Shown here in pieces: positions 2,925 through 50,540 of a stretch of 64,000 bases of DNA; position 1 is the stretch's first letter; the number at the start of each line of letters is the position of its first letter. Source of the stretch: Chitinophaga polysaccharea (GTDB lineage Bacteria; Bacteroidota; Bacteroidia; Chitinophagales; Chitinophagaceae); contig NZ_CABFVU010000002.1 of NCBI RefSeq assembly GCF_902150045.1, forward strand, positions 1,228,001-1,292,000, in the 5' to 3' direction. The notes beneath the pieces are model-generated. The model was not told the origin of the DNA, made no database searches, and saw only the letters and a list, made by a program, of their open reading frames with translations. Both the position numbers and the translations under genes were made by a program.

Positions 2925-3184
2925 GATCTGCGCTACACACCTGTTTGTGGCATTGACGGTGCAAAATTAGGCAAATCCGGGGAGATTTGACCCGGGAAAT
3001 GTGCGGATTATTGTAATGCTGACACTTATATCGGGCGCAGCGATGTTAAGAATTATGCTTTGTTATATTTAAGTATATAGTATTAAATGATTTATGGTTG
3101 ATGATTCCATTGCGTAGCCATCTATACCCCTTTGAGTGCACGGGAGCTCCGCAGCTTACGTTTTCCATAAGTAAGCAGGAGAAA

Positions 3185-45227: not shown

Positions 45228-46607
45228 ATGAATAACAAAATTTCGTTAAAGGAAAAAATAGGGTATGGCTTTGGAGATATGGCTTCTTCCATGTTCTGGA
45301 AGTTATTCGGGATGTACCTGTTATTTTTTTATACAGATGTAATGGGCATTGCTGCCGCAGCAGTAGGCACCATGTTCCTGATCACCCGTATATGGGATAC
45401 CTTTTTTGATCCGGTGGTAGGAACGTTATCGGACAGAACCCATTCAAAATGGGGGAAGTTCCGGCCTTACATTTTATACATGGCGGTACCTTTCGGTATC
45501 ATCGGTATACTCACTTTTACCACACCGGGCTACAACGCCACGGGCAAGCTGGTATACGCTTACATTACCTACTCCGCCATGATGATGATCTATTCACTGA
45601 TCAACGTGCCTTATGCTTCGTTGCTCGGTGTAATCTCCGCAGATGGAAAGGAGAGGAATACACTGGCCTCTTTCCGTATGGCTTTTGCGTTTGGCGGCAG
45701 CCTGATAGCACTGGCTTTGATAGAGCCCCTGGTTAATTTATTCAGTAAAGCCGGCGGAAAGGAGAACCTGCAAGCCGGCTGGCAGCTGGGGGTAGCAGTA
45801 ATAGCGGTTATCTGCGTAATTTTATTCCTGTTGTGCTTTGCATGGGTAAAGGAAAGGGTGCAACCTATCAAAGATGAACAACCGTCCCTGAAGGAAGATA
45901 TAAAGGATCTTTATAAGAATAAGCCCTGGTGGATATTGCTGGGAGCAGGTGTTGCAGCGCTTATTTTCAATTCTATACGTGATGGCGCCACCCTTTACTA
46001 TTTCAAATATTATATCCGTGATATGGATGCTTTTAAACTGGGCGGTATGAGCATCACCTGGTCCACCTTGTACCTGGTACTGGGCCAGGCGGCGAATATA
46101 GCGGGCGTCATCCTGGCCTCTCCCTTAGGCAATAAAGCAGGCAAGAAAAATACCTACCTGGGGGCTATGGTAATAGCTTCGGCACTTAGTATAGCGTTTT
46201 ACTGGCTTGGAAGGGAACAGCTTACACTGATCTTTGTATTCCAGTTCCTCATCAGCATTTGTGCGGGGATCATTTTCCCGTTGCTATGGTCAATGTATGC
46301 CGATATCGCAGACTACTCCGAATGGAGGAACGGGCGCCGTGCTACAGGGCTCATCTTCTCGTCTTCGTCCATGTCGCAGAAATTCGGATGGACCATCGGT
46401 GGTGCGCTCACCGGTTGGTTGCTGGGCGCCTTTGGTTTTAAAGCCAATGAGGTGCAGGCGGATGCCGCACAGAATGGCATCCTGTTAATGCTTAGTTTTT
46501 TACCGGCTATAGGTTCGGTATTGTCTGTCATATTTATTGCCATGTACCCGCTTTCTGAAGAGCGTATCGCTATTATATCAGCGGAACTGGAACAAAGAAG
46601 AAAATAA
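45228..46607 (+). CDS. GPH-family sugar:cation symporter
   Basis: 459 residues from the ATG at 45228 (an ATG 30 bases upstream precedes a polar tail and is less likely). It shows the glycoside-pentoside-hexuronide symporter motifs: LKEKIGYGFGDMASSMFWKL, FLITRIWDTFFDPVVGTLSDR, KWGKFRPYILYMAVPFG and, near the C terminus, WSMYADIADYSEWRNGRRATGL. Twelve membrane segments are expected. Its stop overlaps the next start (TAATG), so it is coupled to the 2-epimerase. This pair is the inner-membrane and epimerisation part of known beta-mannan routes, so manno- or cellobiose is the likely cargo (inference). Confidence 0.88.
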   Translation: MNNKISLKEKIGYGFGDMASSMFWKLFGMYLLFFYTDVMGIAAAAVGTMFLITRIWDTFFDPVVGTLSDRTHSKWGKFRPYILYMAVPFGIIGILTFTTPGYNATGKLVYAYITYSAMMMIYSLINVPYASLLGVISADGKERNTLASFRMAFAFGGSLIALALIEPLVNLFSKAGGKENLQAGWQLGVAVIAVICVILFLLCFAWVKERVQPIKDEQPSLKEDIKDLYKNKPWWILLGAGVAALIFNSIRDGATLYYFKYYIRDMDAFKLGGMSITWSTLYLVLGQAANIAGVILASPLGNKAGKKNTYLGAMVIASALSIAFYWLGREQLTLIFVFQFLISICAGIIFPLLWSMYADIADYSEWRNGRRATGLIFSSSSMSQKFGWTIGGALTGWLLGAFGFKANEVQADAAQNGILLMLSFLPAIGSVLSVIFIAMYPLSEERIAIISAELEQRRK

Positions 46608-47785
46608 TGCAACAGGAATTAAAAACAGCACTGGAAAAAGAGCTCGCAGCTATCCTTAATTACTGGATGAAGTATACACCGGATAAAGTATACGGAGGTT
46701 TTTACGGGAAGCTGGGAAATGATAATATTCCTGTACCGGAAGCGGCAAAGGGAGCTGTATTAAATGCCCGTATTTTATGGACATTTGCCGCTGCCTGCAA
46801 TCATACGCTCAATCCTGTATACCTTGCAACAGCAGACCGTGCATACCGTTATTTTAATGCGCACTTTATTGATCATACTTATGGAGGCGTATACTGGACG
46901 GTAGACTATACCGGGCGGCCGGCGGAAACAAAAAAACAGGTATATGCCATTGCCTTTGCTTTGTATGCCTATAGTGAATACTATAAAGCGACTGCGCATC
47001 CGGAAGTGCTCACAACAGCTATCTCTCTTTACAACAGTATTGAACAGCACAGTTTCGACCCTGTGCATGATGGCTACTTTGAAGCCTTTACACGCAACTG
47101 GCAGGAAATAGCAGACCTTCGCCTCAGCGCAAAAGATGCCAACGAAAAGAAAACGATGAACACCCATCTGCATGTGGTGGAAGCATACGCCAACCTCTAC
47201 ACCGTTTGGCCGGATCAGCAATTGCGCGTCCAGATAAAACGCTTATTGCAATTATTCCATGATAAGATCATCGATCAGAAAAGCGGGCATCTGCATTTAT
47301 TTTTTGATGAACAATGGCAGGTAAAAGGCAATAACATTTCCTACGGGCACGACATTGAAGCCAGCTGGCTGTTGCTGCAGGCAGCGGAAATCATTGAAGA
47401 CGCCGCCCTCATCACTCTCTACAAAAAACTGGCCCTGGTGATCACCAACCTCACCCTGCAGGAAGGAACCGATAAAGACGGCGGTCTCTGGTATGAATAT
47501 GAAACCGCCCAACAACATATGGTTGCTGAAAAACACTGGTGGCCGCAGGCCGAAGCACTGGTAGGGTTTGTCAATGCCTGGCAACTACAGCCACAGGGGC
47601 CTTACCTGCAGCATGCACTGAACACCTGGCACTTTATTGAAAAGCACATCATTGATAAAACCAACGGCGAATGGTTCTGGGGTGTGTATAAAGACTACTC
47701 CATCAAACCGGAAGACAAAGCAGGGCTCTGGAAATGCCCCTACCACAATGCGCGCGCCTGCCTCGAAGGGATAAAGCGGTTGTAG
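46607..47785 (+). CDS. Cellobiose/mannobiose 2-epimerase (AGE family)
   Basis: 392 residues, the usual length for the AGE (alpha/alpha)6-barrel epimerases. Landmarks include GGFYGKLG, LNARILWTFAAA, GGVYWTVDYTGRP, MNTHLHVVEAYANLY, ISYGHDIEASWLLLQAA and KHWWPQAEALVGF, carrying the conserved His residues of cellobiose 2-epimerases. It would convert the reducing-end glucose or mannose of a disaccharide to its C2 epimer. In mannan use it makes mannosyl-glucose, the substrate of GH130 phosphorylase. The only GH130 gene in the window is dead (3729-4377), so another copy elsewhere or another disaccharide route would be needed. Confidence 0.88.
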   Translation: MQQELKTALEKELAAILNYWMKYTPDKVYGGFYGKLGNDNIPVPEAAKGAVLNARILWTFAAACNHTLNPVYLATADRAYRYFNAHFIDHTYGGVYWTVDYTGRPAETKKQVYAIAFALYAYSEYYKATAHPEVLTTAISLYNSIEQHSFDPVHDGYFEAFTRNWQEIADLRLSAKDANEKKTMNTHLHVVEAYANLYTVWPDQQLRVQIKRLLQLFHDKIIDQKSGHLHLFFDEQWQVKGNNISYGHDIEASWLLLQAAEIIEDAALITLYKKLALVITNLTLQEGTDKDGGLWYEYETAQQHMVAEKHWWPQAEALVGFVNAWQLQPQGPYLQHALNTWHFIEKHIIDKTNGEWFWGVYKDYSIKPEDKAGLWKCPYHNARACLEGIKRL

Positions 47786-47794
47786 CAGCGGAAA

Positions 47795-47978
47795 TTGTCT
47801 TGGAACACTGATTATGATGATTTTGATGATTACGCTGATGTTATTTTTATTTTTTTGAATAATTATTATGAGAGATAGAAAGTAAAATCGAATACCCGCT
47901 TATATCTCTCTTAATAATTATTCAAAAAATAAAGTCAAAGTAATCATCAAAATCATCATAATCAGTGTTCCAAGACAA
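47795..47978. repeat. 184-bp imperfect inverted repeat (arms about 83 and 76 bp)
   Basis: The left arm (47795-47877) begins with TTGTCTTGGAACACTGATTA and runs through a GATGATTTTGATGATTAC segment. The right arm (47903-47978) is its reverse complement with only small gaps. The centre is 25 bases. It would form a very long RNA or DNA hairpin directly after the epimerase gene and is not a simple terminator. The outer TTGTCTTGGAACA sequence also occurs at 57194-57206 (inverted), which suggests a dispersed family. Confidence 0.85.
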
Positions 47979-48095
47979 ATCCCGCGTCGCCGAAGGCGAC
48001 CCCCACCAATACGGAATTCGCATTTTTTAATTTGTATTTAGCAAATCGCTCCCACCAGCTTCCGGTGCATCACTATTTTATATATCTTGATGCAC

Positions 48096-50540
48096 ATGAA
48101 CTGCAAGATATATTCCACGCTGCAAGCCGCATTTTTATTGGGCGCCCTTACTTTATCGGCGCAATCTGATGTAACCGTACGGTTCAGTGAACCGGCCCGG
48201 CATTTCACAGCTTCCGCCCCGCTGGGTAATGGTCGCATGGGCGCTATGGTGTTTGGAAACACCAACAGGGAACGGATTGTACTGAATGAAATATCCATGT
48301 GGGCCGGCGGTGTACAGGATGCCGACAGTAAAGAGGCCGGCAACTACCTGCCACAGATCAGAACATTATTGCTGGAAGGAAAGAATATTGAAGCGCAGAA
48401 AATGCTGCAACAGTATTTTGTTTGCAAAGGTCCGGGAAGCAGTGGTGGCGCTAACGTGAAGTTTGGCTGCTACCAGACATTGGGCGATCTTTTTATCCAG
48501 TGGAAAGATACTACATCGGCTATAAGCAACTACCAGCGGTGGCTGCGGTTGGACAGTGCCCTGAGCACTGTAAGCTGGGAAAGGAACGGAACCGGTTTTA
48601 AGGAAGAAGTACTGGTGTCTGTCCCGGGGCAGGTAGCGGTGGTACGTCTCACCGCCAGCAAACCCGGCAGCCTTTCTTTCACTACAGGATTGTACCGTAA
48701 GGAACGCGCCGCACTGAAAGTGGTAAACGGTAACCTGGAAATGAGCGGTACACTGAATGGCGGTAACAATGATCCCGGCGTGCAATATGCGGCCATACTG
48801 AAAGTTATCTCCAACGGCGGTACCCGCTCAGAAAGTAATGATCAGATCACTATTAGCAACGCCAATGAATGCCTGTTACTGGTGGCAGCCCGCACCAATA
48901 TGAACTGGCCGGCAGTGGAAACGCCTGGCCCGGCGCCTATGCCCCAAACGGTGGCTGATATCAGTAAAGCAGCGGCGGTTCCCTGGCAGGGATTACTGCG
49001 GGCCCACGTGAAAGATTATACGTCGTTCTTTAACCGTTGCCGCCTTTCATTTGCAGATAACAGTAATGATGAGGTAAGGTCCCTTTCTACCATCGACCGG
49101 CTCCAACGCCTGCACGATGGCAATAAAGATGCCTCCCTGGCTTCACTGTATTTTAACTTTGGCCGTTACCTGCTCATCAGCTCTTCCCGCAATGGCGGCA
49201 TGCCGGCCAACCTGCAGGGCTTATGGGCGGAAGAATACCAAACGCCATGGAATGCAGACTACCACCTGAACATCAATGTACAGATGAACTACTGGCCGGC
49301 GGAAGTTACCAACCTGTCTGATTGCCACCAGCCTTTATTTACATTGGCAAAACAAATGGCCAAATACGGACAGCGCACTGCACGCACCTACTATAAAGCC
49401 GATGGCTGGGTGGCGCACGTGATCAATAATCCCTGGGGCTTTACCTCTCCCGGTGAAGGGGCCGACTGGGGCTCTACGCTAACGGGCGGCGCCTGGGTGG
49501 CCACTCATCTCTGGAAACACTACCAGTATACCAACGATAAAAAATTCCTGAAAGAAATATACCCTGTGCTCAAAGGCGCGGCTGTTTTTTATAAAGATAT
49601 CCTGATCACGGAACCATCGCATCAGTGGCTGGTCACAGCGCCTTCTAACTCCCCGGAAAACGCATATATCCTGCCCAACGGGCAGCAGGGGCAAACCTGT
49701 ATGGGACCTACCATGGATATGCAGATAGGCAGAGACCTCCTCAAAGCTAACCAGGAAGCCGCTCGCATCCTGCAAACGGATAAGGCCTGGGCGGATAGCC
49801 TGCAGATAGTGCTCGGTAAACTGGCGCCTAACCAGGTAAGCCCGTCTACCGGCGGTATCCAGGAATGGCTGGAAGACTACAAGGAGGCAGACCCGCATCA
49901 CCGCCATGTATCGCCTTTGTATGGCTTATATCCTTACGATGAAATTACTCCCTGGGATACACCGGAACTGGCGGCTGCAGCAGAGAAAACACTGCTCAGG
50001 AGAGGCGATGGCGGTACCGGTTGGTCACGTGCCTGGAAAATCGCTTTCTGGGCCCGTTTAGGCAACGGTAACCACGCCTATAAAATGCTGCAGGAATTGC
50101 TGGCGCCTGCCGCAGCCACCAGCGAAATCAGTATGCGCTCCGGCGCAGGCACTTATGCCAACCTGTTCTGCGCACACCCGCCTTTCCAGATAGACGGTAA
50201 CTTGGGCGCTGTAGCCGGTATCGCGGAAATGCTGCTGCAAAGTCATGGTGGCGATAACGTGATCCGCCTGCTGCCTGCACTCCCGGATAATCCTGAATTT
50301 GCAGCCGGACAGGTACAGGGCCTCTGCGCTATCAATGGTTTTGTAGTGGATTTCAGCTGGAAAAATAAAACTGTGCACGAGCTCAGCCTGCTTTCCAATA
50401 CAGGTGCGGAATGCCGCCTGTTACTGCCGGAAAGCGCTGTGGTAAAGGACCGTAGCGGAGCGGTAGTGCCGCATCAGTACAAAGATGGCGTGCTGCGCTT
50501 CGCTACAAAGAAAGGAATGAAGTATCGCATTACAGTATAA
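48096..50540 (+). CDS. Secreted GH95-family alpha-L-fucosidase-like enzyme
   Basis: 814 residues from the ATG at 48096, which opens a signal peptide (MNCKIYSTLQAAFLLGALTLSAQ); a Met two codons upstream is equally possible. The N-terminal domain has FTASAPLGNGRMGAMVFGN and ERIVLNEISMWAG. The (alpha/alpha)6 catalytic domain has GLWAEEYQTPWNADYHLNIN and NVQMNYWPAEVTNL, then HHRHVSPLYGLYP and the C-terminal GNLGAVAGIAEMLLQS. These are GH95 hallmarks; the family acts on alpha-L-fucosides and also alpha-L-galactosides. It stands alone, with a terminator downstream. Confidence 0.9.
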   Translation: MNCKIYSTLQAAFLLGALTLSAQSDVTVRFSEPARHFTASAPLGNGRMGAMVFGNTNRERIVLNEISMWAGGVQDADSKEAGNYLPQIRTLLLEGKNIEAQKMLQQYFVCKGPGSSGGANVKFGCYQTLGDLFIQWKDTTSAISNYQRWLRLDSALSTVSWERNGTGFKEEVLVSVPGQVAVVRLTASKPGSLSFTTGLYRKERAALKVVNGNLEMSGTLNGGNNDPGVQYAAILKVISNGGTRSESNDQITISNANECLLLVAARTNMNWPAVETPGPAPMPQTVADISKAAAVPWQGLLRAHVKDYTSFFNRCRLSFADNSNDEVRSLSTIDRLQRLHDGNKDASLASLYFNFGRYLLISSSRNGGMPANLQGLWAEEYQTPWNADYHLNINVQMNYWPAEVTNLSDCHQPLFTLAKQMAKYGQRTARTYYKADGWVAHVINNPWGFTSPGEGADWGSTLTGGAWVATHLWKHYQYTNDKKFLKEIYPVLKGAAVFYKDILITEPSHQWLVTAPSNSPENAYILPNGQQGQTCMGPTMDMQIGRDLLKANQEAARILQTDKAWADSLQIVLGKLAPNQVSPSTGGIQEWLEDYKEADPHHRHVSPLYGLYPYDEITPWDTPELAAAAEKTLLRRGDGGTGWSRAWKIAFWARLGNGNHAYKMLQELLAPAAATSEISMRSGAGTYANLFCAHPPFQIDGNLGAVAGIAEMLLQSHGGDNVIRLLPALPDNPEFAAGQVQGLCAINGFVVDFSWKNKTVHELSLLSNTGAECRLLLPESAVVKDRSGAVVPHQYKDGVLRFATKKGMKYRITV

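Follow-up and report, generated by a model that had tools for sequence, protein, structure and literature searches.

A long intergenic hairpin in Chitinophaga polysaccharea, probably a gene-less member of a dispersed family of palindromes linked to a GxxExxY nuclease gene

The window element and its setting

The window analysed here is a stretch of 64,000 nucleotides of Chitinophaga polysaccharea, from a genome of 7.6 Mb in 8 contigs (G000). A long palindromic element lies between two host genes that point in the same direction. Its parts and neighbors are as follows.

46607 to 47785, + strand: upstream host gene, GlcNAc 2-epimerase (PF07221); the element starts 2 nt past its stop codon
47788 to 47848, + strand: left outer arm of 61 nt, made of GCGGAAA, the tip TTGTCTTGGAACAC and TGATTnnnn units as in the consensus of the copies; 90% complementary to 47925-47985
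47795 to 47800, + strand: tip hexamer TTGTCT, the first part of the conserved end, common to the listed copies
47851 to 47880, + strand: left half of the inner hairpin, 30 nt, 93% complementary; a copy of the GGGAGATA...TATCTCCC core that is frequent among copies
47900 to 47929, + strand: right half of the inner hairpin, from the repeat search
47925 to 47985, - strand: right outer arm, which mirrors the left one and has AGACAA and ATCCCGC at its end
47987 to 47999, no strand: mini-hairpin TCGCCGAAGGCGA adjoining the right end, of a kind present at 20 of 38 fetched copies
48087 to 50540, + strand: downstream host gene, GH95 (PF22124, PF14498, PF21307), outside the element

The repeat search places the inverted repeat at 47788-47985. 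Measured from tip to tip (TTGTCT at 47795, AGACAA at 47973-47978), the element covers 47795-47978, exactly the span that an earlier reading of the sequence alone had given for a long inverted repeat. That sequence-only reading had set the repeat after an epimerase gene, in agreement with the PF07221 match of the gene that ends at 47785, and the repeated GATGATTTTGATGATTAC-like segment that it described is a run of 9-bp TGATTnnnn units. Its arm lengths (83 and 76 bp around a 25-base centre) were near but inexact: we find outer arms of 61 nt and inner arms of 30 nt, and the halves of the inner hairpin enclose a 19-nt centre.

Folded as single-stranded DNA, the element reaches -68.9 kcal/mol against a shuffle mean of -15.84 (sd 2.86). 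With a z of -18.55 and none of 200 shuffles as low, the hairpin is far beyond chance. A scan of 47500-48300 for intrinsic terminators (a G+C-rich stem followed by a T run) found none, and an intrinsic terminator was rejected as the identity of the window copy. A known RNA family was likewise rejected, as an Rfam search of six loci gave five matches, all below the gathering score and at chance level.

Copies in this genome and in its congeners

The window repeat has 103 BLAST matches in its own genome, counting both strands together. A short pattern that combines the tip with the units has 206 exact matches there (107 and 99 on the two strands), and the reversed control has none. The sequence-only reading had proposed a search for copies in this and related genomes; many exist, since besides these matches the TGATT pattern occurs in 8 of 79 congeners. 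The unique occurrence that it had named as the sign of a one-off duplication is ruled out by the dispersed copies.

We fetched 38 loci from the genome besides the window copy. The copies are built of GCGGATT, the tip TTGTCT, which leads into TGGAACAC or GACTCAG, several 9-bp TGATTnnnn units, a T-rich stretch and the mirror image of all this; the inner hairpin GGGAGATA...TATCTCCC usually lies between the T-rich stretch and the mirror half. Across the 38 elements, self-match at a lag of 9 is 0.625; the remaining lags between 5 and 14 give 0.22-0.44. A mini-hairpin, TCGCCnnnGGCGA, adjoins one or both ends of 20 of the 38 fetched copies (L009-L046), and five of its seven exact matches in 0.8 Mb of the genome are near an element. 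Hairpin copies are tandem or nested at L029, L044, L045 and L046. At L032, L036 and L042, the left and right tips belong to different sub-dialects, as if by exchange between copies.

The copies tend to lie where genes end. In this genome, a tip lies no more than 30 bp from 48 of 57 gene 3' ends (median 14). The genes on either side converge at 20 of 40 distinct elements, point the same way at 17 and diverge at 1, with the last 2 elements at an edge; the corresponding figures for 121 background gaps of at least 100 bp are 23 convergent, 68 same direction and 30 divergent. Counter-selection elsewhere, a preference for 3' ends or a structural use of 3' ends could each be sufficient to produce this placement. 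Because of where the copies sit, a role for the hairpins at transcript 3' ends is possible.

Comparison with congeners reveals both empty and filled sites. At the window site, the flanking genes are joined by 12 bp in G166 and 10 bp in G168, compared with about 220 bp in the window's genome, and neither congener retains a remnant. In a third congener, G149 (C2 near 2959000; L081), the same site is occupied by unrelated sequence, an insert of about 620 bp. A collinear 0.8 Mb contains 21 elements in G000 and 10 in G166. Eight of the 21 sites have no counterpart in G166, eight are filled in both genomes and the remaining five were placed in neither class; two of the eight G166-empty sites (920819 and 1201578) keep end-like letters in G166 and may be losses. 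No target duplication was seen in the empty-site comparisons, in which the flanks are only 75-87% identical, and no excision product was seen in the congener site comparisons. The sequence-only reading had offered a non-autonomous mobile unit, a transcript-stabilising hairpin or a small RNA source; the first of these is now the best supported, by the dispersed copies and by an empty orthologous site in two congeners.

The two arms of an element resemble each other more than they resemble the arms of other elements. Within one G000 element the arms differ by 5.08 mismatches over 36 positions, compared with 14.12 between elements, and none of 5000 random pairings was as low. At seven of the eight sites filled in both G000 and G166 (1132404 was skipped), this 36-nt comparison shows 42 columns changed alike in both arms and 16 that were not. 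A 55-nt comparison, which includes distal out-of-register positions, is noisier, with 52 symmetric and 91 asymmetric columns. Since near-identical arms are frequent among the elements, only 12 of the 38 have their own right arm as the best match of the left one in this longer comparison. Mismatches inside the arms comprise 13 transitions and 13 transversions. Transitions are not in excess, which gives no hint of G-U tolerance, and RNA wobble selection on the arms was rejected.

The GxxExxY gene and the dialects of its arms

The genome encodes one gene only of the GxxExxY family (PF13366/TIGR04256, PDDEXK_3), and this gene sits between the same arms as the hairpins (left at L047:1287-1359, right at L047:1885-1942). 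Its product is a full member by both the TIGR04256 and PF13366 models, above the curated cut-off and with its active site intact. The motifs GxGxxExxY, D, ExK and QxxxY are invariant in an alignment of 17 relatives. The nearest fold to its AlphaFold model (pLDDT 91.7) is 4ic1, SSO0001 (E 6.6e-5), which we take to be Cas4, followed by LHK-Exo and lambda exonuclease; a sequence search of the PDB with the GxxExxY alignment gave no match. The catalytic residues and the modeled fold thus suggest a likeness to Cas4, lambda exonuclease and RecB-like nucleases, although the protein here is a stand-alone one of 129 residues with no Cas or helicase partner seen in its locus. No other gene-bearing version of the hairpin was found among the tips listed for this genome (100 of 206). 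The right arm beside the gene (region L047:1860-1960) can be read in frame as the signal peptide of the next gene, which encodes a CBM9-like protein.

In G000, G168 and G174, the nuclease gene lies at one orthologous place, next to a gene for an M13 peptidase and directly past its stop codon, and each has its own symmetric arms. With this single orthologous place, the gene is not seen hopping in these genomes. Just the gene tail remains at the nuclease locus in G166 and G149, which have 95 and 5 tips. Pairing of the G166 elements, without the nuclease, is 0.927 (n = 8), equal to that in G000 (0.927, n = 38).

Two arm languages occur in the genus, the TGATT pattern in 8 of 79 genomes and a CGCAAAG pattern in 24 of 79. 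We called a genome hairpin-rich if it had at least 10 tips of either kind. PF13366 is present in 13 of 15 hairpin-rich genomes of the genus compared with 9 of 64 others (p = 1.5e-7, ignoring kinship), or 8 of 64 if G181, a weak partial match among the 22 gene carriers, is omitted. The association has exceptions in both directions: two hairpin-rich genomes, G166 and G204, lack the gene, and 9 of the 22 carriers are not hairpin-rich. The dialect of the arms matches the dialect of the tips. Four genomes with TGATT-armed GxxExxY genes have 91-232 TGATT tips, and the 12 genomes with CGCAAAG-type arms at their GxxExxY genes have no TGATT tips, while eight of these have 13-239 CGCAAAG tips. The second language reaches 140-239 tips per genome in G220, G159, G176, G185 and G219, where its CGCAAAG units accompany a different GxxExxY clade.

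Arms also flank GxxExxY genes far outside the genus. When reference genomes were scanned with the protein, 80 loci were obtained; most are from Bacteroidota, and a few are named as Cyanobacteria, Chloroflexota, Nitrospirae, Poribacteria and others. An inverted-repeat score of at least 18 was reached by 25 of 75 usable GxxExxY loci and by none of 259 other ORFs in the same loci; flanks shuffled between different GxxExxY loci reached it in 37 of 375 pairs, because arms are alike across loci. A tip motif resembling GTCTGAAC flanks the gene on either side at 40 of 74 loci, compared with 2 of 1055 control places, and matched units are present on both sides in 102 of 123 loci (outward in 13 of the 102) and at 37 of 532 random places, both patterns having been chosen after the arms had been seen. 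Six of 74 loci across the phylum lack recognised units. The tip and unit counts and the tree exclude the short loci L053 and L071, the partial or weak loci L128-L130, and those 6 among the 80 that are near contig ends. Among 30 GxxExxY genomes from outside the genus, the GTCTGAAC-type pattern occurs in 21, with the reversed control at zero in all; four genomes have 14-22 matches, most have few and nine have none. At the family level, 96 of 147 genomes carry GxxExxY.

Mapped on a tree built from 86 of the 123 proteins, arm dialect needs 6 changes compared with 22.4 after shuffling, with none of 200 shuffles as low. The tree sets a TGATT-armed clade (44 of 45 labelled rows) apart from one with GCAAAG and CACAGAG arms. 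The dialect therefore follows both the nuclease clade and the genome, which indicates that gene and arms travel or evolve together. Co-variation of gene and dialect would also be expected from co-inheritance of the gene with its flanks.

A REP/RAYT-like family and the alternatives

We propose that the window repeat is probably a solo copy, without a gene, from a dispersed family of palindromes associated with the GxxExxY (TIGR04256/PF13366) nuclease gene, in an arrangement like that of REP/RAYT. According to the REP/RAYT papers, the enzyme gene lies between inverted copies of a palindrome, enzyme and palindromes co-vary, and abundance follows the gene (PMC2817692, PMC3116915); REPs are given there as 20-40 bp long (PMC3733652). 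The family described here resembles REP, BIME and REPIN elements and their RAYT (TnpA-REP) in its high-copy extragenic palindromes, in an enzyme gene flanked by two inverted copies, in palindrome abundance that correlates with the gene, in co-variation, and in a single, apparently domesticated gene copy. However, the arms here are at least 60 nt of 9-bp units rather than REPs of 20-40 bp, and the linked enzyme is a PD-(D/E)XK nuclease whose fold resembles those of Cas4 and lambda exonuclease, whereas RAYT is a Y1 HUH transposase. The Y1_Tnp profile (PF01797) has no match in G000, although in a control it matches in 5 of 14 genomes, and membership in REP/RAYT through a Y1 transposase was rejected. 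The anatomy agrees and the enzyme does not; thus the family works like REP/RAYT but is not a member of it.

We infer that the GxxExxY nuclease moves or multiplies the copies. The nuclease would recognise the TTGTCT tip and the TGATTnnnn units of an extruded hairpin, either as single-stranded DNA or as a cruciform, and would cut there, which would aid the copying or insertion of hairpins at new 3' ends. Hairpin-templated repair and conversion between copies would then keep the two arms symmetric and give each genome its own dialect. More tentatively, GxxExxY proteins in general may be the enzymes of widespread, undescribed mobile palindromes, in which a stand-alone, Cas4-like PD-(D/E)XK nuclease rather than a transposase multiplies dialect-matched hairpins, places them at 3' ends and keeps their arms symmetric; we regard this wider claim as a real possibility that falls somewhat short of probable. 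Neither a link of GxxExxY to repeats or palindromes nor a described function for the family was found in the open-access literature, where a passage names the family in passing. GxxExxY is a common family without known function, and the palindrome reading offers it a concrete and testable job. If true, a second enzyme class, of Cas4 type, would join the few enzymes by which palindromic repeats are spread. Moreover, the palindrome system explains a large share of the long intergenic hairpins in this genus, and the symmetric rewriting of arms at orthologous sites provides a clean natural case for the study of palindrome repair.

The strongest alternative is that the hairpins serve transcript ends, as host-useful 3'-end structures (bidirectional terminators or mRNA stabilisers) under selection, with the GxxExxY gene as a passenger or as the user of a safe harbour. 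This would account for the closeness of tips to 48 of 57 gene 3' ends, for the excess of classified copies between convergent genes (20 of 38, against 23 of 121 background gaps) and their scarcity between divergent ones (1 of 38 against 30 of 121), for arms that remain paired as their sequence changes, and for the eight sites filled in both G000 and G166. We nevertheless consider it unlikely. The terminator scan finds no such site in the window copy, the even split of transitions and transversions gives no sign of G-U tolerance, and clade-specific arms at GxxExxY genes across many phyla are left unexplained. Furthermore, tips of the two dialects are present in just 24 and 8 of 79 congeners, so any host need is not general. 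Could the hairpins instead be an ordinary MITE family carried by a DDE or HUH transposase of the classical kind that is encoded at another place in the genome, with the GxxExxY gene as captured cargo? Like the MITEs of bacterial insertion sequences (IS), they are short, gene-less and dispersed, with terminal inverted repeats and empty orthologous sites, and one DDE transposase gene (PF13751, PF01609) in G000 lies between two identical tips 1.9 kb apart, the longest pair among the listed tips. That transposase, however, is bounded inside the hairpin arms by different ends of its own (GCTGTCTCATAAATA at L307:1335, with the complement at 3092), which suggests an IS that inserted into a hairpin copy (L307:1271-3180, G000 C1). 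It is the sole transposase between the tips listed for G000 (100 of 206), and as a parent IS of the hairpins it was rejected.

Other features make the MITE explanation doubtful, more so than a service to transcript ends, and the lack of a Y1_Tnp match in G000 counts among them. The hairpins also differ from MITEs in arms that take up almost the entire element and change in a symmetric manner; site comparisons across flanks of 75-87% identity showed no target duplication, and the listed tips revealed no parent IS. Among adjacent plus- and minus-strand tips less than 2 kb apart listed in G166 and G168, 37 of 38 pairs span under about 250 bp, and the sole longer pair holds the GxxExxY gene. Across phyla, the arms track the nuclease clade. 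A quite different account is that the hairpins are old and mostly vertically inherited, such that apparent new copies are losses elsewhere and the likeness of arms comes from conversion and template switching within palindromes. The sites shared with G166 (8 of 21) agree with this account, as do the end-like remnants in G166 at two of its other eight sites, 920819 and 1201578. We judge it the least probable of the alternatives, since the window site is empty and free of remnants in both G166 and G168. In addition, 71 of 79 congeners have no TGATT-dialect tip, and vertical inheritance would therefore need many losses.
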